From IMG/VR virus record IMGVR_UViG_3300018421_005007, positions 1 to 32,925 of that record: a stretch of DNA of 32,925 nt. The stretch is one strand, 5' to 3'. Shown in pieces: positions 9,738 to 28,749 of this stretch. The DNA comes from a virus. The translations under genes and the position numbers were made by a program. A model generated the notes under the pieces. It ran no database searches and was not told where the DNA came from. It worked only from the letters and a program-made list of their open reading frames with translations. The number at the start of each line of letters is the position of its first letter. The stretch's first letter is position 1.

Positions 9738-11710
9738 TGGCATACGATAATAATATTAATCCAGGCAATCCACCACTAGTGTGGAGCAGAGTCAGAGACG
9801 CCTTTGACAAGATTAATGAGAACTTTACAATTCTTGGAACTTCACTTGCGAGACAATTACAAAAAGATGTTGCACACATTGAATCCGGAACTTCAGAAAG
9901 TAACCCTGTAAGAATTGTAACGACCGAAGCACACGACATAGCATCCGGAGATAGAGTATTTGTATTCAATACGGGTGTAAGCCAATTAGACAACAACTAT
10001 TACTATGCTAGTGTCATTAGCACTACTGAATTTGAACTATATTCAGATACAGGATTAACGGCAGCAGTTGATGGAACGGCATACGATTCTTATTCTTCGG
10101 GCGGTGGTGAAATACAGGCACTAACAAGTTATTCTAGTTTAGATTTTGAAAACATGACAACTAGCATTTCACCTAACGTTGCTTCAGAATATGACCTAGG
10201 AACAATTTCAAAACCATGGCAGTCATTATACACTGCGGAACATGCAGACACAGATGCAGATGCGTTTAATGGTGTTTGGTTAGGCTCGGCACAAATTAAG
10301 GGCAAGCCAGGCGGAATAGTTGATCTACCAGCAGGTTCAACAGTTGACGGTAGTTTAATTATAAATCCAGATCAAACATTCTTCAAGAGCGTTCAAATAG
10401 ATAGTGGTGATAGAGTTGTTGCAGACGACTTTGTTGATACACTTAATCTAATTAGTGGTAGTGCTATTTCAATGGTTGTTGATAGTGCCGCTGAATCAAT
10501 CACAATCACCAATACTGGTGTTACACAATTAGCAGCAGGATCGGGTGTAAGCGTTAGTTCAGCAACTGGAAACATAACAGTTGCTAATACGGGCGTTCTA
10601 AGTGTTGCTAATTCTACAACACTGCCTGCAATAGCCACAGGAAGAACAGCAGGCGTTGGTATTATAACAAGCACTTCGACAGGAGCCCTAACACTAACAA
10701 ACACAGGTGTTATTGAAGTCCAGGCTGGAACTGGTATAACAACATTTACTGATACTGCAACAGGTATTGTTACGGTAACAAACGGTGCACCGGCAGGTAA
10801 CGCATTTAGATTTATAGATGTATTTGGTCAAACGTCACTGGAAGCAAACTCAGTTGCGGGTAGATTAGAATTTGTTGAAAGTGATAACATCATCATTACG
10901 ACTGATGGTGCAACTGACAAGGTAACATTTACTTTCAATAATACTACAGACATCATTGGTAGTGTGTTTGCAGATGACTCCACAAAACTAGTAGATGCAG
11001 TGGAAGGATTAGTTGTTGGTAATGTTGAAAATACATCAGTCATAACAACAGCAGTTACGACTAATAACCTAACAGCAGACGGTGTAATAGATTTTACCAA
11101 TGCAACAATTAATTTCGAAGGCACGCAATGGCAAAACATACCAGATCCGATATACATGGACATTGTTGGTAGTGTATTTGCAGATGACTCTACTAAACTT
11201 GTTGATGCCGTAGAAGGTGAAATATACGGAACTATCAAGAGTGATAGTTGGATGTTGGCGAGTGATAGTTATCTAACTATTTCAAATGGTGGTGCTACTG
11301 GTCCAGGACCTATTCAAATTGTTGCTTCCGGAGATTTAGATTTAAGTGCAGGCTCAGGTCAAACCATTAATGCAAACAGAAATATTGTAGCATCAGGTGG
11401 TATTACTGGAGATATAACAGGTTATCAAACTGGTGACATGACAGGATCTGTTTTTGCAGATGATTCAACAAAATTAGTTGATGCTGTTGAAGGAAAGATT
11501 GTAGGACCAATTGAATCGGATAATATAAGAGGAACGCTCATAGGAACAGTTTATGCAGATGATTCCACAAAAATTATAGATCATGAAGGTAATGTTTTAT
11601 ACACACCTTCTACTCCAAGCGATTGGAATGGAACTGCACCAACTACTGTAGGTGAGGCGCTGGATAGAATAGCGGCTTGGATAAAGGCAAGTGATGGAAC
11701 GGGAGCGTAA
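9737..11710 (+). CDS. structural protein with ADDSTKLVD repeats (657 aa)
   Basis: The start shares a base with the previous stop (TAATG). The N-terminus carries the anchor motif in degenerate form (RVRDAFDKINENFTIL, about residues 18-33). The middle is a low-complexity Thr/Ala/Val/Gly beta region of the kind found in fibrous phage proteins. The C-terminal third has three exact copies of a 17-residue unit, GSVFADDSTKLVDAVEG (residues 408, 478 and 570), and a variant at 603 (GTVYADDSTKIID). It ends with TVGEALDRIAAWIKASDG, a probable helical cap. This ADDST repeat is typical of T4-like cyanophage virion proteins. It is probably a tail-fibre or baseplate-associated protein made with the 2254-residue fibre. 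Confidence 0.8.
   Translation: MAYDNNINPGNPPLVWSRVRDAFDKINENFTILGTSLARQLQKDVAHIESGTSESNPVRIVTTEAHDIASGDRVFVFNTGVSQLDNNYYYASVISTTEFELYSDTGLTAAVDGTAYDSYSSGGGEIQALTSYSSLDFENMTTSISPNVASEYDLGTISKPWQSLYTAEHADTDADAFNGVWLGSAQIKGKPGGIVDLPAGSTVDGSLIINPDQTFFKSVQIDSGDRVVADDFVDTLNLISGSAISMVVDSAAESITITNTGVTQLAAGSGVSVSSATGNITVANTGVLSVANSTTLPAIATGRTAGVGIITSTSTGALTLTNTGVIEVQAGTGITTFTDTATGIVTVTNGAPAGNAFRFIDVFGQTSLEANSVAGRLEFVESDNIIITTDGATDKVTFTFNNTTDIIGSVFADDSTKLVDAVEGLVVGNVENTSVITTAVTTNNLTADGVIDFTNATINFEGTQWQNIPDPIYMDIVGSVFADDSTKLVDAVEGEIYGTIKSDSWMLASDSYLTISNGGATGPGPIQIVASGDLDLSAGSGQTINANRNIVASGGITGDITGYQTGDMTGSVFADDSTKLVDAVEGKIVGPIESDNIRGTLIGTVYADDSTKIIDHEGNVLYTPSTPSDWNGTAPTTVGEALDRIAAWIKASDGTGA
10958..11590 (+). 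repeat. coding repeat: 3 exact protein copies plus 1 variant of a 17-residue unit
   Basis: Copies encode GSVFADDSTKLVDAVEG at 10958-11008, 11168-11218 and 11444-11494. A variant, GTVYADDSTKIIDHEG, is at 11543-11590. The three exact copies differ only by synonymous changes: copies 1 and 2 differ at 8 codons, and Ser in copy 3 uses TCT instead of AGT. The protein sequence is therefore held by selection rather than by recent duplication. Confidence 0.9.
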
Positions 11711-11714
11711 TTAG

Positions 11715-11969
11715 ATGGCTAAACTAACAGTAAACATCGGACAGAGCGCAAACGACAGACAGGGCGATAATCTACGCACAGCCTTTGATAAGATTAATAA
11801 AAATTTCGACGAACTATATGTAGGTCCTCCACAACTTACACAAGCAGAAATTGATGCATTAACACCTGTGTTTGGTATGATGGTATACAATACTACCACT
11901 GGTAAGTTTCAAGGTTATGCTGCTGATGCCAATAATGACAGCACAGCAGGGTGGGCTGATCTACACTAA
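11715..11969 (+). CDS. small structural protein with anchor motif (84 aa)
   Basis: 84 residues starting at ATG 11715, with GGGAG at 11701-11705 as ribosome site. The first 40 residues are almost a pure copy of the anchor motif (QSANDRQGDNLRTAFDKINKNFDELY). The rest has the pattern of a phage fibre tip or trimerisation module (ALTPVFGMMVYNTTTGKFQGYA), a turn also seen at the ends of collar and fibre proteins. It looks like a minimal anchor-plus-tip protein. It lies 4 bases after the 657-residue protein and is probably a virion component; its exact place is unknown. Confidence 0.75.
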   Translation: MAKLTVNIGQSANDRQGDNLRTAFDKINKNFDELYVGPPQLTQAEIDALTPVFGMMVYNTTTGKFQGYAADANNDSTAGWADLH

Positions 11970-15138: not shown

Positions 15139-15741
15139 GTGGCAAGCAACATTAATTATTTGAGTATTAATGAAAACTTTCCTGTAGCAGGACAGGACAA
15201 TGATACTCAGGTATTCAGAGATAACTTTGATACCATAAAAACAAGCCTTAGAAATGCTAAGGAAGAAATAACAGACTTACAGGGCGATACAGCCAAGGTA
15301 AATGTAGATAATGATTTTGAATTGAATAAGATTCAAAGAGCATTACTTCAGAATAATAGAACACAGAAATTTGATGGTGGTGCCGTAACTGCTTCTCCCA
15401 CTACAATTGATTATGAAAATGCCAACTATCAAATTTATAGACTAAGTGCTAACCTTACTATGGATTTCCTAAATTTTCCAGGAGATCCTGTTTTTGTTTC
15501 CGAAACAACTCCAATTGGAATGGGAAAAGTAACACTTGAATTATACGGTGATGGAACTAAAAGATTAATCACTTTCCAAACTTCAGGTGGAACTGTAATT
15601 AAGAAAAATGGATTTCCGGCATTAACGGAAGTCGGTGCTCATGATTTTGAAGTATCTTCAAACAGTGATCCGATCATTATTGAAGTATGGAGACACAACG
15701 AAGATAACATCTTTATTAGATACATAGGACAATTTTCATAA
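15139..15741 (+). CDS. structural protein with anchor-like motif (200 aa)
   Basis: GTG start at 15139, supported by GGAG at 15127-15130 and a late box upstream. The N-terminus (FPVAGQDNDTQVFRDNFDTI) is a diverged form of the anchor motif: an Asn-Asp turn, then an R-x-NF helix. A short coiled stretch follows (SLRNAKEEITDLQGDTAKV), then a beta domain with GDGTKRLITFQTSGG and EVWRHNEDNIFIRYIGQF at the end. This order fits a small fibre or baseplate-wedge accessory protein. The stop shares a base with the next ATG (TAATG). No named family is recognised. Confidence 0.75.
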   Translation: MASNINYLSINENFPVAGQDNDTQVFRDNFDTIKTSLRNAKEEITDLQGDTAKVNVDNDFELNKIQRALLQNNRTQKFDGGAVTASPTTIDYENANYQIYRLSANLTMDFLNFPGDPVFVSETTPIGMGKVTLELYGDGTKRLITFQTSGGTVIKKNGFPALTEVGAHDFEVSSNSDPIIIEVWRHNEDNIFIRYIGQFS

Positions 15742-15977
15742 TGTTTCATCCGTTTGAAGAGGATCTAACACAGTTAACTGACACCCAGTTAACAGAAAAA
15801 ATATCCGAATTGAACAAAAAATACTTCCAAGCCAGCCGTTTAGGTAAAGGTCAACTGTTGACACAACTCCAAACATTTGTTACAATATACAGAGATGAAG
15901 TGCGTAGAAGAGCAATGCAATCGAAGTTAAATGCAAATGATGATAAGGATTTGGATCAACTAATTAATGTCGACTAA
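15741..15977 (+). CDS. small conserved helical phage protein (78 aa)
   Basis: 78 residues, translationally coupled to the preceding gene by TAATG. Largely helical and charged: TQLTEKISELNKKYFQASRL, then LLTQLQTFVTIYRDEVRRRAM, with an acidic end (NDDKDLDQLINVD). It resembles small proteins seen at the end of structural blocks in marine T4-like phages, but I know no function. It overlaps the next gene by 11 bases. It could be a minor virion or assembly factor; this is inference from position only. Confidence 0.65.
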   Translation: MFHPFEEDLTQLTDTQLTEKISELNKKYFQASRLGKGQLLTQLQTFVTIYRDEVRRRAMQSKLNANDDKDLDQLINVD

Positions 15978-16440
15978 TACAACACAATCAATAATAAAAG
16001 GAATTCTTAAACACGGTCCTGATATAATAGAAAACTGTGTGGTTACGGATGATTTCCAAAAATATTTGGAAAGAATAGACAAAGAATTTCTTAATTATCC
16101 AATTCCAAAAAAAGATGTGGACACGAACAATTGGTTCATGCCTGATAGTTATAAGAATTTGGACATCAAAAAATACGTGTTGGAACTCTGCAAAACCGAC
16201 GAAGAAAGGCAGAGAGTTACGCATGAATTGGAAATTTACGAAAAAAGAAATTTAATTATGCTACTAAGACAAATGAAATATATAGTAGATACACTAAGAA
16301 AACATAATATTTTATGGGGTGTTGGTAGAGGATCGAGTGTGGCTAGTTACACGCTCTTTTTGATGGGGGTCCACCACATCGATAGTATTAAATACAATAT
16401 ACCCTTAAACGAATTCTTTAAAGGAGAAAAAAATGGCTAA
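15967..16440 (+). CDS. DnaE-like fragment ending just before the catalytic aspartates
   Basis: 157 residues. The C-terminal 40 residues (115-151) read like the start of the bacterial Pol III alpha catalytic core: GVGRGSSVASYTLFLMG aligns with the family GPGRGSxxGSLVAY GS motif, and HHIDSIKYNIPLNEFF with ITxIDPLxYNLLFERF. In DnaE that segment is followed by NPER and the PDIDID catalytic aspartates; here the protein stops after GEKNG. The helix before the motif (LLRQMKYIVDTLRKHNI) also fits. It therefore keeps the nucleotide-contacting GS loop but cannot polymerise. The N-terminal 110 residues are unrecognised. Possible roles are binding nucleotides or DNA, or a new function on an old fold. It overlaps both neighbours. 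Confidence 0.65.
   Translation: MSTNTTQSIIKGILKHGPDIIENCVVTDDFQKYLERIDKEFLNYPIPKKDVDTNNWFMPDSYKNLDIKKYVLELCKTDEERQRVTHELEIYEKRNLIMLLRQMKYIVDTLRKHNILWGVGRGSSVASYTLFLMGVHHIDSIKYNIPLNEFFKGEKNG
16388..16395 (+). promoter_or_regulatory. possible late promoter box TTAAATAC inside the DnaE-like gene
   Basis: It lies in coding sequence, so it may be chance. Predicted start near 16400 would give a 33-base leader with AAAGGAG before ATG 16433, the same layout as the clearer boxes. Confidence 0.3.
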
Positions 16441-16663
16441 AACAATTAGAAGCATGAGAGGTAAGGAAGTTGACATGGAAAAACTTAATCTTAGAAACGA
16501 AACCTTGCCTGCTGTTGGTAACATGAAAGTAAATGCACGCGGTGACGAAATTGGTCAGGGCGGTAAAATCATTAGAACCAGAGAAGAAGTTCTAAAAGAT
16601 TATTACAAGCAAAACCCAAGAGCAATGGAAGAAGAACTAGTTAATAGAAATAAAAAAGGTTAA
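16433..16663 (+). CDS. small conserved phage protein (76 aa)
   Basis: 76 residues behind a good AAAGGAG ribosome site. It contains MRGKEVDMEKLNLRNETLPAVGN and a conserved-looking core, NARGDEIGQGGKIIRTREEV, followed by the helix LKDYYKQNPRAMEEEL. I recall similar short proteins beside structural genes of T4-like marine phages, without a known role. There are no cysteines, membrane segments or enzyme motifs. The GDEIGQGGKI turn may bind a partner protein or nucleic acid. It overlaps the DnaE-like gene by 8 bases and precedes the co-chaperonin by 6. Confidence 0.7.
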   Translation: MAKTIRSMRGKEVDMEKLNLRNETLPAVGNMKVNARGDEIGQGGKIIRTREEVLKDYYKQNPRAMEEELVNRNKKG

Positions 16664-16669
16664 TTAAAC

Positions 16670-17059
16670 ATGATCAAAGGCAAGGTAAGGGCAATACATG
16701 CCGACGTTCTGGTCTGTGGTATGCACTTTGGCGAAACCAAGACCAAGGGCGGCATCATTATCAAATCTGATGATGCAAAGGCACACGGTGTAAAACCGCG
16801 CTGGGCAAAAGTTTATGCAAAAGGTCCAGAAAATACTGATCCATACGATGTAGGCGATTGGATTCTAGTTGAGCATGGTCGCTGGACTAGAAAATTAGAA
16901 ATTGAAAACGAACACGGTGAAAAGGTTGAACTTCAAAAAGTTGAATTAGAATCCATCCTAGCCTGGCAAGATGAGGAACCAGACATGGCATACTTTGCAC
17001 AGGAATACGGTGACGGTGCCACTGCAACCTTTGACGCAGGCATGTTCGGTGCACAATAA
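16670..17059 (+). CDS. GroES-like co-chaperonin (T4 gp31 analogue)
   Basis: 129 residues. GroES landmarks are visible: a mobile loop, GETKTKGGIII (residues 21-31), in which GGIII matches the GGIVL tripeptide region that docks on GroEL; a central WAKVYAKGPEN strand in place of GxVxAVGxG; VGDWILVEHGRW matching the VKVGDxVLF strand; and an ESILAW end. In T4, gp31 replaces GroES so that GroEL can fold the large capsid protein, and a similar job is likely here. A 30-residue acidic/Gly/Ala tail beyond the fold is extra. It lies between two phage-specific genes and is probably expressed late or middle. Confidence 0.82.
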   Translation: MIKGKVRAIHADVLVCGMHFGETKTKGGIIIKSDDAKAHGVKPRWAKVYAKGPENTDPYDVGDWILVEHGRWTRKLEIENEHGEKVELQKVELESILAWQDEEPDMAYFAQEYGDGATATFDAGMFGAQ

Positions 17060-17075
17060 TTAGAAATTTTAACGC

Positions 17076-17720
17076 ATGGAATCCGCACCCCATTATTTTT
17101 CTAACTATGGATTTATTGTTAAGGATCTTCCTAAAGAACTACTAGACAAGATCAAGCAGGAAGTTTCTGCTATACTTAACGATAATAAGAATAATAATGA
17201 AATACTAGTATCGGGACTATCTGGTAAGCCTTTTCATAATGAAGGCGGTGTTCCTATACACTACTATCTTAAGGAAAGTTATGACGACATTTCTAAATTC
17301 ATACTGGAATGTGTAAAAGACTTTGAAGATGAGTTTGATTATTTTTCAACCATTAATTTACTAAACAGCGATCTCCCATTGTTTGTTGACAGACCTTGGG
17401 TTAATTTTCAAAAGAAAACTGAGTTTGTTCCTAGCCATATACATGATGGTATATTAAGTTACACGTTCTGGATACAGATACCTTATGATATAACAGAAGA
17501 AATGGGCAACGGTAACCATTGCGGAACCTTTTACTTTGATTACACCAGCATCATTGGAACTTCAAGGCAGCACAAAATACCAATAGACAAGAGTTACGAA
17601 GGAAAGTGCATGATGTTTCCTTCCACACTAAAGCACACCGTGTATCCATTTTACACGAGTGATGAATTAAGAATTTCCGTTTCCGGAAATGTAAAACTTA
17701 ACGCTCTCAATACCGGTTAA
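17076..17720 (+). CDS. 2-oxoglutarate/Fe(II)-dependent oxygenase family protein
   Basis: 214 residues. The double-stranded beta-helix of the 2OG-Fe(II) superfamily is suggested by WVNFQKKTEFVPSHIHDG (His121, His123, Asp124), followed by the LSYTFWIQIPY strand, a distal histidine in PSTLKHTVYPF (His187), and Arg199 in ELRISVSGN, which would hold 2-oxoglutarate. This resembles the phage family with an HxH(D) rather than a plain HxD iron motif. Targets of such phage oxygenases are mostly unknown; protein prolyl, DNA-base or small-molecule hydroxylation are all possible. No clear Shine-Dalgarno lies before ATG 17076. It converges with a minus-strand gene, overlapping by 4 bases (TTAA). Confidence 0.8.
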   Translation: MESAPHYFSNYGFIVKDLPKELLDKIKQEVSAILNDNKNNNEILVSGLSGKPFHNEGGVPIHYYLKESYDDISKFILECVKDFEDEFDYFSTINLLNSDLPLFVDRPWVNFQKKTEFVPSHIHDGILSYTFWIQIPYDITEEMGNGNHCGTFYFDYTSIIGTSRQHKIPIDKSYEGKCMMFPSTLKHTVYPFYTSDELRISVSGNVKLNALNTG

Positions 17721-19111: not shown

Positions 19112-19518
19112 GAGTAGGATTTACAGCATCAGCATTTGATCTATTCCATAGCGGGCATGTTGCCATGCTAAAGGAAGCAAGATCAAACTGCGACTACATG
19201 ATTGTAGGACTACAGACTGACCCAACCATTGACAGACCCGAAAAGAATAAACCAATTCAAAGTGTGTTTGAAAGATATGTTCAATTGGAAGGTTGCAAAT
19301 ACATAGATGAAATTATTCCTTATGCTACAGAACAGGATCTATTAGACATATTTCTAACATATAAAATTGATGTCCGTTTTATTGGCGAAGAATATAAACA
19401 AAACGAATTTACGGGCAAGCAATTATGTCTTGACAAAGGAATAGAAATACATTACAATAGTAGACAGCATTCGTTTAGCACAAGCGGCTTGCGAAAAAGG
19501 ATAAGTGAGGCAAAATGA
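19108..19518 (+). CDS. glycerol-3-phosphate cytidylyltransferase-like nucleotidyltransferase
   Basis: 136 residues from a TTG start embedded in the cupin stop (TTGA). The cytidylyltransferase signatures are clear: FDLFHSGHVAML with the HxGH catalytic motif (His14, His17) near the N-terminus, VGLQTDPTIDRPEKNKPI, and the STSGLRKR nucleotide loop (residues 124-131). Relatives include TagD and RfaE-like enzymes, which join CTP (or ATP) to a phosphorylated polyol or sugar. In phages such enzymes may feed modification of DNA, lipid or surface glycans. The exact substrate is not visible. It ends in an ATGA overlap with the clamp loader. Confidence 0.85.
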   Translation: MRVGFTASAFDLFHSGHVAMLKEARSNCDYMIVGLQTDPTIDRPEKNKPIQSVFERYVQLEGCKYIDEIIPYATEQDLLDIFLTYKIDVRFIGEEYKQNEFTGKQLCLDKGIEIHYNSRQHSFSTSGLRKRISEAK

Positions 19519-20429
19519 AAGAACTATGGGTAGAAAAGTATCGTCCTAAAACACTAGACAACTATGTGTTTAGAGATGAAAATCAACGTAAACAAGCACA
19601 AAGTTGGGTCAAGGAAAAATCAATTCCGCATTTACTTTTTAGTGGTGCGGCAGGTATTGGTAAAACCACGATGGCCAAAATCCTAATTAATGAATTAGAA
19701 ATTCCAGACTATGACGTATTGGAAATAAATGCATCTCGAACAAACTCAGTTGATGCCGTAAGAGATAAGATTACAAATTTTGTGCAGATGATTCCATTTG
19801 GTCCATTCAAGGTTGTGTTGCTGGATGAGGCTGACTATCTTTCTCCAAATGCACAGGCAGCACTGCGTGGCGTAATGGAAGAGTATCATACTACTGCACG
19901 TTTTATTCTTACTTGTAACTATCCTAATAGAATTATTCCTGCACTGCACTCACGTTGCCAAGGCTATCACATAGAAAGAATTGATCAAACAGAATTTACG
20001 GCAAGAGTTGCGACTATTCTTGTTGAAGAAAAAGTCGACGTTGAACTAGAAACACTTGACCTGTATGTAAAAGCAACATATCCTGATTTGCGTAAATGTA
20101 TTAATATGGTTCAGCAAAACGTGTCAGATGGTAAACTGCATGCTCCTAATAAAGGAGATGAAGGAACCGCTGATTGGAAGTTTGATATGGTTGAATTATT
20201 CAAGGCAGGAAAAATTACAGATGCAAGAAAACTGCTGTGCGGTAAACTAAAGGCTGAAGAAATGGAAGAAGTTTATCGTTGGTTGTATGATAATTTAGAA
20301 ATTTTTGGTGAAGAAGAAAAACAAGATACGGCTGTATTAATAATTAAACAGGGTCTGGTTGATCATACGTTGGTTGCTGATCCGGAAATTAATTTAGCGG
20401 CTGTGCTGATTAAACTAGCACGCCTCTGA
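19515..20429 (+). CDS. 44: sliding-clamp loader large subunit (T4 gp44-like AAA+ ATPase)
   Basis: 304 residues, close to T4 gp44. It opens with the RFC-type LWVEKYRPKTLDNYV. Walker A is GAAGIGKTT (residues 44-52), Walker B VVLLDEAD (Asp104, Glu105), sensor 1 is ILTCNYPNRI, and the arginine-finger SRC motif is at 146-148. In T4, four gp44 and one gp62 load the gp45 clamp onto primed DNA. The small subunit and clamp are not in this window, so they must be encoded elsewhere or differ from the T4 order. Position in an operon with a host-type promoter fits early/middle expression. Confidence 0.95.
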   Translation: MKELWVEKYRPKTLDNYVFRDENQRKQAQSWVKEKSIPHLLFSGAAGIGKTTMAKILINELEIPDYDVLEINASRTNSVDAVRDKITNFVQMIPFGPFKVVLLDEADYLSPNAQAALRGVMEEYHTTARFILTCNYPNRIIPALHSRCQGYHIERIDQTEFTARVATILVEEKVDVELETLDLYVKATYPDLRKCINMVQQNVSDGKLHAPNKGDEGTADWKFDMVELFKAGKITDARKLLCGKLKAEEMEEVYRWLYDNLEIFGEEEKQDTAVLIIKQGLVDHTLVADPEINLAAVLIKLARL

Positions 20430-20439
20430 AAGGACATTT

Positions 20440-20688
20440 TTGAAGATAAGGTATTATCATAAGATAGACGGATGGAGATGGTTAGGATTCGTATTAGCAA
20501 TGGTAGGCGCTTTCATACTGAGTGGAGGCGATCCCAAGTTGCAGTGGCTAGGGTGGGCAATAGCCTGCTTCAGTTGTAGCATATGGATCTATATGGGATG
20601 GAAGGATAAAGATACACCAAGAGCGTTAATGGAATTATTTTATTTGCTGTTAGCGATTAGAGGTATCGTAAATTGGATAGGACAATGA
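20440..20688 (+). CDS. small three-helix membrane protein (82 aa)
   Basis: 82 residues from TTG 20440, with AAAGGAC (20429-20435) upstream. Three hydrophobic helices are visible: about 13-28 (WLGFVLAMVGAFILSGG), 34-52 (LQWLGWAIACFSCSIWIY) and 62-80 (ALMELFYLLLAIRGIVNWI), joined by a polar GWKDKDTPR loop. It resembles a short PnuC-type or DUF-like membrane protein, but no transport motif can be claimed. It is coupled by an ATGA overlap to the ferredoxin, hinting that the two may work together at the inner membrane. That link is inference. Confidence 0.7.
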   Translation: MKIRYYHKIDGWRWLGFVLAMVGAFILSGGDPKLQWLGWAIACFSCSIWIYMGWKDKDTPRALMELFYLLLAIRGIVNWIGQ

Positions 20689-21005
20689 CACACTTAGTAG
20701 ATGATAAATGTATAAACTGTAAGCACACGACCTGCGTTGAAGTATGTCCTGTGGATTGCTTTTATGAAGGACCTAATATGCTTGTAATTAATCCTGGCGA
20801 GTGCATTGATTGTGGAGTATGCGTTCCCGAGTGTCCGGAAGAAGCAATTTATCAAACCGATAATGTTAACGATCCTTGGTATAAACACAATGAATATTTT
20901 TCTGAGGAATGGCCAAATATTATTGAGCAAAAGGATCCCATGCCTGACTATGAAACCTGGTCGGCATACGAAGGCGACAAAACAAAATTATTTAAGGCAA
21001 AATAG
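20685..21005 (+). CDS. fdxA: 7Fe ferredoxin (3Fe-4S plus 4Fe-4S)
   Basis: 106 residues from ATG 20685, which overlaps the previous stop (ATGA). The cysteine pattern equals that of Azotobacter FdI-type 7Fe ferredoxins: Cys9, Cys12, Cys17, Cys21-Pro and Cys25, then Cys40, Cys43, Cys46 and Cys50-Pro, within PVDCFYEGPNMLVI and ECIDCGVC. Such proteins carry low-potential electrons. The C-terminal half (NEYFSEEWPNI...) is the usual acidic extension of this class. A phage copy could feed electrons to viral or host reductases; the partner is not visible. The phage IscA-like carrier at 2278 might supply clusters. Its stop lies in a perfect hairpin. Confidence 0.93.
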   Translation: MTHLVDDKCINCKHTTCVEVCPVDCFYEGPNMLVINPGECIDCGVCVPECPEEAIYQTDNVNDPWYKHNEYFSEEWPNIIEQKDPMPDYETWSAYEGDKTKLFKAK

Positions 21006-23169: not shown

Positions 23170-23682
23170 ATGGCATCTGCAAACTACGATAAGTGTTTAG
23201 AAACAATACTTCATCACGAAGGTGGATATGTAAACCATCCAAAAGACCCTGGCGGGGAAACCAACCTAGGTGTTACTAAAAGAGTTTACGAAGAATGGGG
23301 TGGAACAAAGGACATGAAAGACCTAACGGTCGAGGATGTTGCTCCAATCTATAAGAAAAATTATTGGGATAAAATGAAGGGTGATGATTTGCCTGCAGGT
23401 TTAGACCTATGTGTGTTTGACTTTGGTGTTAACGCAGGTCCAGGTCGTTCAGCAAAATATTTGCAAACCATGATCGGAACAGTTGCTGATGGTGGCATTG
23501 GTCCTAATACACTAAGAGCATTATCAACTTATATTGATGCAGAAGGTGTTGAAGGTGCTATCAAAAATTTCCAAGCAGCACGCCAATCATATTATGAATC
23601 ATTAAGCACCTTTGAAACATTCGGTAGAGGTTGGACTCGCAGAGTTGATGAAACTACTGAACTTGCACTATCAATGGTATGA
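23170..23682 (+). CDS. endolysin, GH108 family N-acetylmuramidase
   Basis: 170 residues, typical for the family. The N-terminal catalytic signature HHEGGYVNHPKDPGGETNLGVT includes the general-acid Glu17. The conserved YKKNYWDKMKGDDLPAGLDLCVFDFGVNAG and VADGGIGPNTL segments follow, the latter being the peptidoglycan-binding C-terminal part. It cuts the glycan backbone of peptidoglycan at lysis. There is no signal peptide, so it needs a holin to cross the inner membrane. It begins the lysis cassette and its stop overlaps the tiny zinc-ribbon gene (ATGA). Confidence 0.93.
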   Translation: MASANYDKCLETILHHEGGYVNHPKDPGGETNLGVTKRVYEEWGGTKDMKDLTVEDVAPIYKKNYWDKMKGDDLPAGLDLCVFDFGVNAGPGRSAKYLQTMIGTVADGGIGPNTLRALSTYIDAEGVEGAIKNFQAARQSYYESLSTFETFGRGWTRRVDETTELALSMV

Positions 23683-23837
23683 GTAAATACTGCCAAAATT
23701 GCGGTAGACAACACGAAGGTAGATTGGTAGAAACCTTTACTGACGGTGACGGACAGCCAATCGATATAGTGGTTTGTGAGAATCCGAGATATAATACAAA
23801 TATATCATTAGCAGATTTTTGGAGATATTATGTTTAG
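23679..23837 (+). CDS. tiny zinc-ribbon-like protein in the lysis cassette (52 aa)
   Basis: 52 residues, starting at the ATGA overlap with the endolysin stop and ending 8 bases into the i-spanin gene. It begins MSKYCQNCGRQHEGRLVETF and has Cys5, Cys8, His12 and Cys33, a plausible three-Cys/one-His metal site. The middle, TDGDGQPIDIVVCENPRY, is compact and polar. Tight overlap on both sides argues that it is a real gene. No function is known to me; it could regulate lysis timing or be an unrelated passenger. Confidence 0.7.
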   Translation: MSKYCQNCGRQHEGRLVETFTDGDGQPIDIVVCENPRYNTNISLADFWRYYV

Positions 23838-24315
23838 TTCAATCAAGATTGCGTTAGTATTAGTAATGTTAGCAGGCGCCGGCGGAGGCTTTATGTATGT
23901 AAAGACTCTTAAGAGTGATCTTGCTATTAGTGAAGCAAACAATGCAAAACTTCAAGACAGTGTTGCAGAACAGCAATCAGTCATTGAGCAACAGAAAAAA
24001 GACTTTACTGCTATATTGGCCGCAAACAAAGAACTCGAAGATAAGAACAGAGTTCTTCAAGCAGAATTTAAAAATCTAGATGAGCGTTTCAACAAAATTA
24101 ATGGCAAGGGAGAAGTTAGAGATATCGGAAAACTTGCCATTGATAGAGATAAAGCAGTTGAGCGTATTATTAACAATGCATCTAAAAAGGCAATGCGATG
24201 TGTAGAAATTGCTATGGGTGCAGAACTAACGGAGGCAGAGAAAAATGCTACTAAGAAATCTGAGATCAATTCAGAGTGTCCTAGTCTTGCTAATCCTAAC
24301 TACGTTCCTTACTAG
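23830..24315 (+). CDS. i-spanin (Rz-like inner-membrane spanin subunit)
   Basis: 161 residues behind GGAG (23821-23824). One N-terminal transmembrane helix (about 5-23, IKIALVLVMLAGAGGGFMYV) is followed by a long heptad coiled coil rich in Gln/Glu/Lys (about 26-100, ISEANNAKLQDSVAEQQSVI and onward), the design of an Rz-type i-spanin. The C-terminus has two cysteines and ends in NPNYVPY. Spanins fuse the inner and outer membranes in the last step of lysis. The identity is supported by the overlapping lipoprotein gene that starts 71 bases before its end, the classical Rz/Rz1 layout. Confidence 0.82.
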   Translation: MFSSIKIALVLVMLAGAGGGFMYVKTLKSDLAISEANNAKLQDSVAEQQSVIEQQKKDFTAILAANKELEDKNRVLQAEFKNLDERFNKINGKGEVRDIGKLAIDRDKAVERIINNASKKAMRCVEIAMGAELTEAEKNATKKSEINSECPSLANPNYVPY

Positions 24316-24628
24316 TTGTAGCACAGTTCAGAAGTTAGACATTTTTAAGACCGAAGTTAAAAGAGAACCTCTTAACTTGGAAAATCCTGCGACTCCTAAA
24401 ATGGAAGAACTAAAGTTCATTATTATCCATAGCCAGAACGCAGAAGAAGTATTTGCTAAAATGAAAGAGCAAGGAAAGGATCCTGTGCTGTTTGGTTTAA
24501 GCGATGAAGACTATGAAACACTTGCTAAGAATTTTGCACAGATACGTGCATATATGATTAAACAACAACTGATAATAGACAAGTATAAGGAATACTATGA
24601 ACCAGTTGAGGAACTTAAATCAGAATAA
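24245..24628 (+). CDS. o-spanin (Rz1-like outer-membrane lipoprotein)
   Basis: 127 residues in a different frame from the i-spanin, overlapping it by 71 bases, with GGAGG (24231-24235) 9 bases before ATG 24245. A signal sequence (RNLRSIQSVLVLLILTTFL) ends in the lipobox LTSC, with the acylated Cys25. The mature part is 103 residues, longer and less Pro-rich than lambda Rz1, with a helical charged C-terminus (AQIRAYMIKQQLIIDKYKEYY). It would be anchored in the outer membrane and pair with the i-spanin across the periplasm, implying a Gram-negative host. Confidence 0.85.
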   Translation: MLLRNLRSIQSVLVLLILTTFLTSCSTVQKLDIFKTEVKREPLNLENPATPKMEELKFIIIHSQNAEEVFAKMKEQGKDPVLFGLSDEDYETLAKNFAQIRAYMIKQQLIIDKYKEYYEPVEELKSE

Positions 24629-25039: not shown

Positions 25040-25882
25040 ATGGACTACTATTCTACACTAGGTATAAACCGAAATGCTAGCCAGGAAGAAATCAAAAAGG
25101 CATACAAAAAAATGTCTATGCAGCATCATCCTGATAGAACGGGCGGAGATGATTCAAAGTTTAAGGAAATAAACGAAGCCTACCAGACCCTTAACGATCC
25201 CCAAAAGAAACAAATGTATGATCAGTATGGTTCTACTGATCCTAGACAACACCAATTCCGCTCAGGAGATTTTCATTTTAACTTTAACGGGTCTCCTTTT
25301 AGCGGAGGCATGGACGAAATGTTTGAACAGTTTTTTGGCGGTGGTTTTGGTCAACGCCAGAGAGCAAATCGTCCAATACAGGTTGCCGTTGACGTAACAT
25401 TAGAAGATGTTCTAAACGGAAAAACAATGGGCATGGAAATACAACTTCCTACGGGCAGAACCAAAGTAGTTACAGTTGATATTCCTGTCGGAGTGGAACA
25501 CGGACAACAGATTAGATATAGAGGAATGGGAGAGCAAAACAATCCTAATTTGCCTCCGGGTGATTTAATTATTACAACCAGAGTAAGAAAACATTCAATA
25601 TTTGATCGTTATGGAGATAATATTGTTTGCGAAATTCCTATAAATGTGTTAGAATTAATAACAGGCACAAAAACTAAAATTCAAACACTTGATAGAAAGA
25701 GCATTGAAATAAACATACCAAAAGGCACACAACCAGATACTGTTCTAAGTTGCAGAGGAGAAGGACTACCCAATATGAGAACAAAGCAAAGAGGAAATTT
25801 GCAAATTAGAATCAAGGGAAAAATTCCTACGCTCAACACAGAACAGTTAAATAGAATTAAAGATATTAAAGATGGAATATAA
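25040..25882 (+). CDS. DnaJ/Hsp40 co-chaperone without zinc finger (CbpA-like)
   Basis: 280 residues. The J domain (residues 1-65) carries the HPD motif (His30-Asp32), which stimulates DnaK ATPase. A short Gly/Phe linker follows (FHFNFNGSPFSGG... FGGGFGQ), then two client-binding beta domains (from IQVAVDVTLEDVL, with GDLIITTRVRKH and CRGEGLPNM). The four-repeat zinc finger of class A DnaJ is absent, so it is a class B, CbpA-type protein. It would recruit host DnaK to phage or host proteins. It overlaps the deformylase gene by 11 bases and begins the proteostasis cassette. Confidence 0.93.
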   Translation: MDYYSTLGINRNASQEEIKKAYKKMSMQHHPDRTGGDDSKFKEINEAYQTLNDPQKKQMYDQYGSTDPRQHQFRSGDFHFNFNGSPFSGGMDEMFEQFFGGGFGQRQRANRPIQVAVDVTLEDVLNGKTMGMEIQLPTGRTKVVTVDIPVGVEHGQQIRYRGMGEQNNPNLPPGDLIITTRVRKHSIFDRYGDNIVCEIPINVLELITGTKTKIQTLDRKSIEINIPKGTQPDTVLSCRGEGLPNMRTKQRGNLQIRIKGKIPTLNTEQLNRIKDIKDGI

Positions 25883-26411
25883 ACTAGACATAGACTATAA
25901 ATTAGGATTACACGAAGCACTTAACCAATCCAGTGAAGTGTGGGATTTCGGCAAAGAAAAATATGATCCTGAAAAATTAGAATGGGATATGTGTAATTTT
26001 ATGATTCAAAACAAGGGCATTGGATTGGCTGCAAATCAAATCGATCTTAAGAAAAGAGTTTTTGTTATGGGCAGCACGGACCTACCGAATTTTCCTAAAC
26101 CCTTTGCACTTTTCAATCCTACAATTCTAGAAGTTAGTAAAGAGAGAGTTCTTGACACAGAAGGCTGTTTAAGTTTTCCAGGTTTACTATTAAAAGTTTC
26201 AAGACCATCCTGGATAGTAGGGCAATGGCAAAACGCCAAGGGCGAAACAAAAGAAGGAAAGATTCAAGGTTATCTTGCAAAATGTTTTCAACATGAATTT
26301 GATCACCTAAATGGTGTATGTTTTGTTGACAGAGTGGGTAAACTGAAGTTACAATTAGCACTTAAGAAATTAGACAAGTTGAGGAAAAAAATAAAAAATG
26401 ATAGAGCCTAG
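25872..26411 (+). CDS. def: peptide deformylase
   Basis: 179 residues with all three deformylase motifs: GIGLAANQ (49-56), EGCLSFP with metal ligand Cys99, and QHEFDHLNG with His141, catalytic Glu142 and His145. It removes the formyl group from nascent proteins. Phage versions are known in marine cyanophages, where they may keep maturation of new proteins going under heavy synthesis; that role is inferred here. The C-terminus is a longer basic helix (KLKLQLALKKLDKLRKKIK), perhaps for ribosome contact. Gene overlaps of 11 and 14 bases place it firmly between dnaJ and clpA. Confidence 0.95.
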   Translation: MEYKLDIDYKLGLHEALNQSSEVWDFGKEKYDPEKLEWDMCNFMIQNKGIGLAANQIDLKKRVFVMGSTDLPNFPKPFALFNPTILEVSKERVLDTEGCLSFPGLLLKVSRPSWIVGQWQNAKGETKEGKIQGYLAKCFQHEFDHLNGVCFVDRVGKLKLQLALKKLDKLRKKIKNDRA

Positions 26412-28749
26412 TAAACAACTACAGCAGATATTTGATTCGTCTGTTCAAATAGCACAAAAATATAACCACAGACTTATCACAATAGAACATTTGGTTCTTG
26501 CAATAGTATCAGACGAAGAAGCAGCCAAGGGTCTTGCTGCGTATGGTGCTGATGTTGATTACATTCGAAGCAATTTAGAACACTATCTTAAAACTAATCT
26601 ACAGGACATTGTAGCCACTGAAGGTAACGTTGTTCCTAAGAAAACTAATTCAGTAGAGCGTGTTTTAAATAGATGCTTCACACAGGTTTTATTCAGTGGT
26701 AGACAACAGATGGAAACTGCTGATGTTATCATTAGTGTGTTGTCTGAAAAGAATTCATTTGGCTTTTATTTCCTAACAAAGGGAGGTATTGCCAAGGATA
26801 AATTTGTCCAGCATTTCCAAAAACATTATGTGGAAGAGGATGACTTCTTTGATGAGGAAAGAGATATAGCACTTAACGAAGATCAAGTTGATAAGATCAT
26901 TAATCAATTTTCAGAAAATTTAAGTTTAAAAGCCAAGCAAAAAGTTATTGATCCTGTCATAGGACGAGAAAACGAACTTGAAGATATTACTCTTGTTTTA
27001 GCACGTAGGCAAAAATCAAATGTTTTGATGGTAGGTGATCCTGGTGTGGGTAAAACTGCTATTGCCGAAGGACTTGCACGCAAGATTTTTGAAAAGAAAG
27101 TTCCTAAGTTTATTCAAGATCATACTGTTTATAGTTTAGATATCGGATCATTGGTTGCTGGTTCAAAGTATCGTGGCGATTTTGAAGAAAGAATTAAGGC
27201 TGTTCTAACAGCGTTACAAAGAAAAGGCAAGGTTATCCTATTCATTGACGAAGCACACATGATGAGTGGTGCAGGCACAGCAAGTCAAAGTTCCAATGAT
27301 CTAGCAAACATGCTAAAGCCAGCACTTGCAAAAGGAAACCTAAAGGTTATTGCTTCCACTACCTGGGAAGAATATCGCAAATACTTTGAAAAGGATCGTG
27401 CGTTGATGCGTAGATTCCAGCGTGTTACGCTAGATGAACCGTCAGAAGAACTAACTGTTAAAATTATTAAGGGCATTAGAAAATACTACGAAAAATTCCA
27501 TAACGTTGCTATTACCGAAGAAGCAATCGAACAGGCAGTAAAACTTTCAGTCAAATACATGGCTGATAAGAAACTGCCTGATAAAGCCATTGACATTATT
27601 GATTGTGCATCAGCAAGATACAAACTTAACGATGATCCTGTTGAGAAAGGCATTCAACAGATTGTTGATGTTGAACAGGTAACATATGAACTATCTAAAA
27701 TGATCGGAATGCCTTTAGAAACTGTTGCACAGAAGGAAAGCAAAAATCTTTCAGGCTTGGAAGATTCCATGAAGTCAGCAGTGTTTGGGCAGGACGAAGC
27801 AGTGGAAACACTGTTAGATAAGATCTTTGTTGCACAGGCAGGATTAAAAACTCCGAACAAACCGATAGGTAGTTTCTTGTTCCTAGGGCCAACTGGTTGT
27901 GGTAAGACAGAAACAGCAAAACAGTTAAGCGAAAAGATGGGAATGAACTTAATTAGATTTGATATGAGTGAATATCAAGAGAAACATTCCGTTGCAAGAC
28001 TGATTGGTGCGCCTCCGGGTTATGTTGGATACGAGGAAAATGCAGGGCAACTAATTACTAAACTACAGGAAAATCCTAATTCAATATTATTGTTAGATGA
28101 AATTGAAAAGGCGCATCGTGATGTATCAAACATCTTACTTCAATTTATGGACAATGGATTTGTTACCGGAAGCAACGGAAAACAAGCGGACGGAAGAAAT
28201 ACGATTCTTATCATGACATCAAATTTAGGTGCGGCTGACAATGAAAACAATACCATTGGCTTTGGCGAACTGGAAAAGAATGATGAGGATGATAAAGCGG
28301 TTAAAAACTTTTTTGCTCCTGAATTCCGTAATAGATTAGATGCAACAATTAAATTTGCAAAACTATCAAATACTGTTGTTGAATCGATTGTTAAGAAATT
28401 CATTGACGAATTAAATTCTCAACTTAAAGATAAGAACATCATAATCAATGCAGACAATGATACTGTTTCGTGGTTATCCGATAAAGGGTATAGTCCTAAG
28501 ATGGGTGCAAGACCTTTGGGCAGAGTAATAGATTCTAAAATTAAAACTCCTCTTAGTAAGAGAGTTCTATTTGGCGATCTTGTTGATGGTGGTAAAGTTT
28601 CTATTTCTATTGAAAACGATGAACCTACATTTACTGTAACTCCTATGCCTAAACCCTTAACCAAGGCAGAGCGAAAAGCACTCAAGGCTCAAGCAGCAGA
28701 AGAGAAACAGAATGCAGAAAAACAAACTACCGAATCCGAAGAAAACTAA
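26398..28749 (+). CDS. clpA: ClpA-type AAA+ protein unfoldase
   Basis: 783 residues, near the size of E. coli ClpA. It has an N-domain (1-150), then two AAA+ modules: Walker A1 GDPGVGKT (213-220) with LFIDEAHMM, and Walker A2 GPTGCGKT (497-504) with LLLDEIEKAH. The long ClpB middle coiled coil is absent. Before APEFRNRLD is an IGF tripeptide (residues 620-622), matching the IGL/IGF loop by which ClpA and ClpX dock on ClpP. It should unfold proteins for the host ClpP protease, since no clpP is seen here. The C-terminal 40 residues are a charged Lys/Glu/Ala tail. It overlaps the next gene by 38 bases. Confidence 0.95.
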   Translation: MIEPSKQLQQIFDSSVQIAQKYNHRLITIEHLVLAIVSDEEAAKGLAAYGADVDYIRSNLEHYLKTNLQDIVATEGNVVPKKTNSVERVLNRCFTQVLFSGRQQMETADVIISVLSEKNSFGFYFLTKGGIAKDKFVQHFQKHYVEEDDFFDEERDIALNEDQVDKIINQFSENLSLKAKQKVIDPVIGRENELEDITLVLARRQKSNVLMVGDPGVGKTAIAEGLARKIFEKKVPKFIQDHTVYSLDIGSLVAGSKYRGDFEERIKAVLTALQRKGKVILFIDEAHMMSGAGTASQSSNDLANMLKPALAKGNLKVIASTTWEEYRKYFEKDRALMRRFQRVTLDEPSEELTVKIIKGIRKYYEKFHNVAITEEAIEQAVKLSVKYMADKKLPDKAIDIIDCASARYKLNDDPVEKGIQQIVDVEQVTYELSKMIGMPLETVAQKESKNLSGLEDSMKSAVFGQDEAVETLLDKIFVAQAGLKTPNKPIGSFLFLGPTGCGKTETAKQLSEKMGMNLIRFDMSEYQEKHSVARLIGAPPGYVGYEENAGQLITKLQENPNSILLLDEIEKAHRDVSNILLQFMDNGFVTGSNGKQADGRNTILIMTSNLGAADNENNTIGFGELEKNDEDDKAVKNFFAPEFRNRLDATIKFAKLSNTVVESIVKKFIDELNSQLKDKNIIINADNDTVSWLSDKGYSPKMGARPLGRVIDSKIKTPLSKRVLFGDLVDGGKVSISIENDEPTFTVTPMPKPLTKAERKALKAQAAEEKQNAEKQTTESEEN

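Follow-up and report, generated by a model that had tools for sequence, protein, structure and literature searches.

The 157-aa protein encoded near the middle of the window (the whole 32,925-base stretch of IMG/VR virus DNA analyzed here, for which no close isolate was found) is very probably the N-terminal subunit of a split, minimal family-C nucleotidyltransferase of the DNA polymerase III (Pol III) α type, whose partner is encoded elsewhere. What looks like a broken gene would be half of a predicted enzyme, its active site divided between a clamp-loader gene cluster and a primase-adjacent gene. The split enzyme is indicated by a second phage gene that begins where the 157-aa protein stops and by the co-inheritance of the two genes, whose products we refer to as the N-half and the C-half.

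The N-half and its fixed end point

The N-half open reading frame (ORF) runs without interruption from an ATG start to a TAA stop and overlaps its upstream neighbor by 11 nt (15967–15977) and its downstream neighbor by 8 nt (16433–16440), confirming the intact frame and clean overlaps described in a first-pass annotation of this DNA (Table 1). DnaE/PolC profile comparison, which that annotation had proposed as a check, gave matches to Pfam PF07733 (E-value 4.6e-10; score 40 bits, cut-off 23.9 bits), to NCBIfam DnaE/PolC models (E-values of 1e-8 to 3e-3), and to PHROG 11127, a 171-position family named "DNA polymerase" (E-value 3.4e-46), and these matches argue that the kinship with DnaE is not due to chance. 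The resemblance had been placed in the C-terminal 40 residues, which is correct but understated, since positions 250–394 of TIGR00594 align to N-half residues 14–154. No PHP domain was found in the 157 residues, PF07733 being the only Pfam family detected. The family-C polymerase GS motif recognized in the first pass is present as GVGRGSS; the IDPxxYNxxFERF block reported to follow it is also there, but in a diverged version that reads IDSIKYNIPLNEFF and does not match literally. The protein does end before the PDIDID aspartates, as had been claimed: its C-terminal residues are NEFFKGEKNG, at which point DnaE carries on with (M)PDIDID, and neither the catalytic PDIDxD nor the third aspartate is found in the N-half, which stops earlier.

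Table 1. Features of the window around the N-half gene
Feature	Position	Strand	Remarks
Upstream neighbor, 78 aa (PHROG 15348)	15741..15977	+	Overlaps the N-half start; upstream in 80/113 loci
Probable N-terminal subunit of a split minimal Pol III α (PHROG 11127)	15967..16440	+	157 aa
GVGRGSS, GS (triphosphate-binding) motif	16318..16338	+	Residues 118–124
Conserved C-terminal end (...PLNEFFKGEKNG stop), predicted fission point	16400..16440	+	Precedes DnaE (M)PDIDID
Downstream neighbor, 76 aa (PHROG 14844)	16433..16663	+	Present in 102/106 loci
GroES/gp31-like co-chaperonin	16670..17059	+	PHROG 931, E-value 2.5e-11; in 99/100 loci
gp44-type clamp loader (RFC small-subunit-like)	19515..20429	+	In 58/60 loci

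A 17-sequence alignment was used to search IMG/VR and retrieved at least 599 stretches, and among the matches listed at least 594 encode relatives of the N-half, so that the protein is indeed conserved in other phages. The stop codon lies 28–36 codons past GxGRGSS in 122 motif-bearing ORFs (some loci having been fetched twice), with a single exception that runs off the end of its contig. Across 68 aligned relatives GxGRGSS is invariant except at its second position, where V is nearly invariant, and residues W56, R83, E87, L100, W117, G118, G120–V125, L130, H136, and F150 do not vary. Pairwise dN/dS of the N-half is 0.08–0.18, the larger values coming from pairs with dS above 1. The fixed end point and the low dN/dS indicate that the N-half is not decaying, and the earlier view of it as a maintained protein therefore stands. 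A remnant in decay, or an artifact of assembly or frameshift in a full-length DnaE gene, is an extremely unlikely reading: the version in phage CBB has been described merely as truncated, in the portion of that report available (PMC5259590), but all complete relatives examined share one end point, the dN/dS values point to constraint, and no DnaE continuation lies 3′ of the N-half stop, where the conserved and unrelated PHROG 14844 gene begins. The AGGAG-type ribosome-binding site of the latter gene sits within the 3′ end of the N-half gene. In one near-identical N-half (L005:4171-4643) the frame shifts after residue ~46, through what is probably a sequencing error.

Several other genes of the window were identified in passing. 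A UvdE-type UV endonuclease fragment (1–555), an Fe/Mn superoxide dismutase (1361–1921), an Fe-S cluster assembly protein (2278–2604), a 2OG-Fe(II) oxygenase (17076–17720), and a 4Fe-4S ferredoxin (20673–21005) make up a host-like metabolic and repair cluster. A glycosyl hydrolase 108 endolysin is followed by two small overlapping frames (23170–24628) that resemble an overlapping spanin pair, one of them opening with a lipoprotein-like signal. A J-domain (DnaJ-like) protein, assigned by reading the sequence, and a peptide deformylase and a ClpA/ClpB-type AAA+ ATPase, both assigned from Pfam, lie consecutively at 25040–28749 as a protein-quality-control cassette.

A second gene with the catalytic aspartates

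Genomes encoding the N-half hold a second gene (PHROG 11778, ~192 aa) whose product has all of the invariant catalytic aspartates. A member of this family is gene 437 of phage Phosso (191 aa). Its product opens with MKKVTDIDIDF, equivalent to the first Asp cluster of DnaE; in addition, GFFKMDFLN matches the segment with the third Asp, and FKKSHAVSYA matches the fingers. When the start was chosen as the nearest Met where one exists, DxDxD was found 1–6 residues past it in 85 C-halves, most commonly in the form MPDIDID. Residues D6, D8, D10, and D71 are invariant among 55 C-halves, which also retain the KSH-bearing fingers motif. The N-half stops short of the catalytic residues because this second phage gene begins exactly there. 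In Mycobacterium tuberculosis DnaE (5lew), a Met stands before PDIDID at residue 413, and the profile of the N-half matches up to 407; the presence of that Met suggests that fission took place at an internal Met native to DnaE. TIGR00594 by itself missed most C-halves, and they are often annotated as "putative membrane protein" or "hypothetical protein," as in the CBB, GAP32, Muenster, and SNUABM phages. A small gene upstream of the N-half gave a weak match to the C-half profile (E-value about 0.04 to 10), which was a short helical match and was taken as chance.

AlphaFold2 single-chain models were made of the N-half, using the window sequence, and of the C-half from another locus (L142), with a mean pLDDT of 85.5 and 92.7, respectively. 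The N-half model superimposed on residues 276–397 of 2hnh (Z 9.4, 105 residues, 3.4 Å) and the C-half model on residues 401–781 (Z 8.2, 182 residues, 3.9 Å), where a structural Z of 7–8 can occur by chance. The corresponding ranges were 277–398 and 397–781 in 5fkw and 294–459 and 458–838 in the Taq structure 4iqj_C; residues 1–51 of the N-half fall outside the structural coverage. The two predicted models thus tile one Pol III α chain, with the boundary near E. coli residue 398. Since Foldseek E-values for both models were above 0.001, the case for the fold rests on DnaE/PolC structures topping the ranks and on the tiling. The structure prediction suggested in the first-pass annotation accordingly placed the N-half in a palm sub-region of Pol III α, with DnaE/PolC filling the top ranks.

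The isolate records for the two halves have 58 of 60 in common among the matches listed. Those listed with the N-half only are Stenotrophomonas phages CM1 and RAS14, and in CM1 the C-half was found directly despite that listing; the C-half alone is listed for a Klebsiella phage record of 109 kb and for Slicko01, and an N-half occurs in Slickus01, the sister phage of Slicko01. The C-half was present in 7/7 contigs with a full N-half match. Distance matrices of the two halves from 27 two-half genomes were correlated (Mantel r 0.80; 0/5,000 permutations as high), a correlation that speaks for vertical co-inheritance and not for contact, since common descent alone would give the same result. In isolates the two genes are separated by at least tens of kilobases. 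A gp61-like primase is encoded within 2.8 kb of the C-half in 63/71 cases, and the clamp loader of the window, downstream of the N-half, shares 54.6% identity with the one annotated in phage Paride; by these neighbors, both halves are in replication-related clusters.

We consider it improbable that the N-half, with or without a partner, works by itself to regulate through nucleotide binding or to act as a decoy for host Pol III. It is a separate polypeptide within its own conserved gene cluster, and one contig (G003) seems to retain it without the C-half, but co-occurrence with the C-half is near perfect in isolates and in contigs covering both loci, and the split point coincides exactly with the C-half start. 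The suggestion of a domain recruited from a bacterial replicase holds for its family-C replicase origin and for the invariant nucleotide-binding motif, but not for a lone domain, as a co-inherited gene supplies the missing half; that of a dominant-negative mimic of host Pol III is not supported, a separate gene starting at the aspartates pointing instead to a split enzyme. Against a decoy role it also counts that Pol III α binds the clamp and tau through its C-terminal region, which is absent from the N-half and the C-half alike. On contig G003 (202 kb), the N-half (G003:C1:97656-98132; L068, L172) and its small upstream partner gene lie within a phage backbone of a very different kind, at a distance from the clamp loader of that phage and lacking the neighbors that are usual on the downstream side. 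The C-half was not detectable on this contig, though a DnaB helicase is present; this N-half is possibly a transferred orphan half or the product of a chimeric assembly.

No C-half was found within the 33-kb window, which is a fragment, or in large contigs of 217, 129, 114, and 111 kb from the clade of the window. Those contigs likewise have no DnaB helicase and no block with gp61, gp41, and the C-half, so the C-half region appears simply to be unassembled in them. True loss of the C-half in this clade (G001, G002, G007, G009, and others), leaving an orphan N-half, was considered and rejected, since DnaB and the replication block are missing too and another contig of the clade has both halves. 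The latter (G117, 210 kb) encodes the N-half at 11393–11848 and the C-half at 178360–178923; its N-half is 53% identical to that of the window and is nested in the window clade, for which basal node support is only 0.35. NrdA proved unreliable as a clade marker for joining contigs, and a gene at the left end of contig G058 failed to tie the window clade to the replication block.

Predicted role of the paired halves

If the halves assemble, the N-half would contribute helices together with the GS loop, the elements by which Pol III grips the triphosphate of the incoming nucleotide, and the C-half, encoded far off beside the primase gene, would bring in a reduced fingers region as well as the catalytic aspartates. 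Such pairing is predicted to create one active site in which GRGSS would hold the triphosphate and the C-half the metals. A family-B DNA polymerase was found in 7/7 relatives tested, including a window-clade contig (G001), the window itself being too short; beside this replicase and the clamp loader, the pair may extend primase-made primers or fill gaps. We infer that the paired halves most likely form a nucleotidyltransferase/polymerase of two subunits, which may extend primers used by the family-B replicase.

The spacing between the second and third aspartates of the C-halves is 60–65 residues versus about 150, by alignment, in Taq DnaE, which implies loss of the thumb, so that what the pair forms may differ from an ordinary DNA polymerase. 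Primer extension, gap filling, or another activity of low processivity therefore seems more probable than replication proper. A thumb-less, PHP-less, two-chain family-C enzyme of ~350 aa might be a polymerase dedicated to primer extension in the handover from primase to family-B replicase, a role that we put forward tentatively. The apparent absence of the thumb, the reduced fingers, and the family-B polymerase already encoded by these phages would also fit a pair that acts as a thumb-less nucleotidyltransferase on ends, nicks, RNA, or free nucleotides, in tailing, repair, or signaling; with a clamp loader and a primase as gene neighbors and the KSH-containing fingers motif retained, we regard such a function as conceivable but doubtful. 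We know of no tested precedent for a family-C polymerase split between its triphosphate- and metal-binding motifs. Should the two-chain primer-extension polymerase prove true, a thumb-less polymerase architecture would be spread over hundreds of uncultured phages.

Relation to known systems

A minimal Pol III α has been predicted by Iyer et al. (2021) to be encoded as separate proteins in group 2.2 jumbo phages, with NTP binding assigned to the N-terminal part and binding of Mg2+ and template to the C-terminal part, the genes for the two lying far from each other, alongside a family-B polymerase (PMC7824862). The window N-half resembles that N-terminal part: it comprises the NTP-binding portion of the core with the GS motif and stops before the aspartates. 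Unlike the phages of that survey, the window belongs to an uncultured lineage outside it, and N-halves of the window lineage are 151–160 aa versus ~170–180 aa in the surveyed system. The homologs RaK2 ORF162, 121Q gp56, CBB_328, Atu_ph07 gp316, and Paride_0087 are about 40–51% identical to the window N-half and have the same neighbors (PHROG 14844, GroES-like, and gp44 genes), with an N-terminal extension longer than that of the window protein. Earlier, CBB_328 was noted only as truncated in the available part of its description (PMC5259590), and individual phage papers, in the parts accessible, refer to a truncated protein or a Pol III α subunit and mention no partner half. No experimental test of a split Pol III was found in the open-licence literature searched. 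The E. coli phage 121Q and the Pseudomonas aeruginosa phage Paride are isolates with both halves, each roughly 170–210 aa and encoded as gp56 and gp16 in the former and as Paride_0087 and Paride_0017 in the latter, which makes the 2021 prediction directly testable. Annotation would gain as well, many C-halves now being named "hypothetical" or "putative membrane protein" despite carrying the Pol III catalytic aspartates.

As in bacterial DnaE/PolC (2hnh, 3e0d, 5lew), the N-half corresponds to palm sub-region 276–397 of E. coli α, with GRGS and its flanking helices. Unlike DnaE/PolC, it has no PHP domain, catalytic aspartates, thumb, fingers, OB, or tau-binding parts, and the aspartates and fingers are on a separate protein. 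Single-chain ORFs of 570–622 aa with a GS-type motif and PDVDID were also seen at three loci (L541, L542, and L543, on contigs G110, G095, and G099, respectively); they seem to have no PHP domain and resemble a compact one-piece family-C polymerase, and G095 and G099 additionally encode a split-type C-half. The 2021 paper supplies the prediction, and the tests made here concern the precise site of the cut, the start at a Met, the tiling of the structures, and co-inheritance; for an uncultured lineage the split polymerase is now supported by independent tests.
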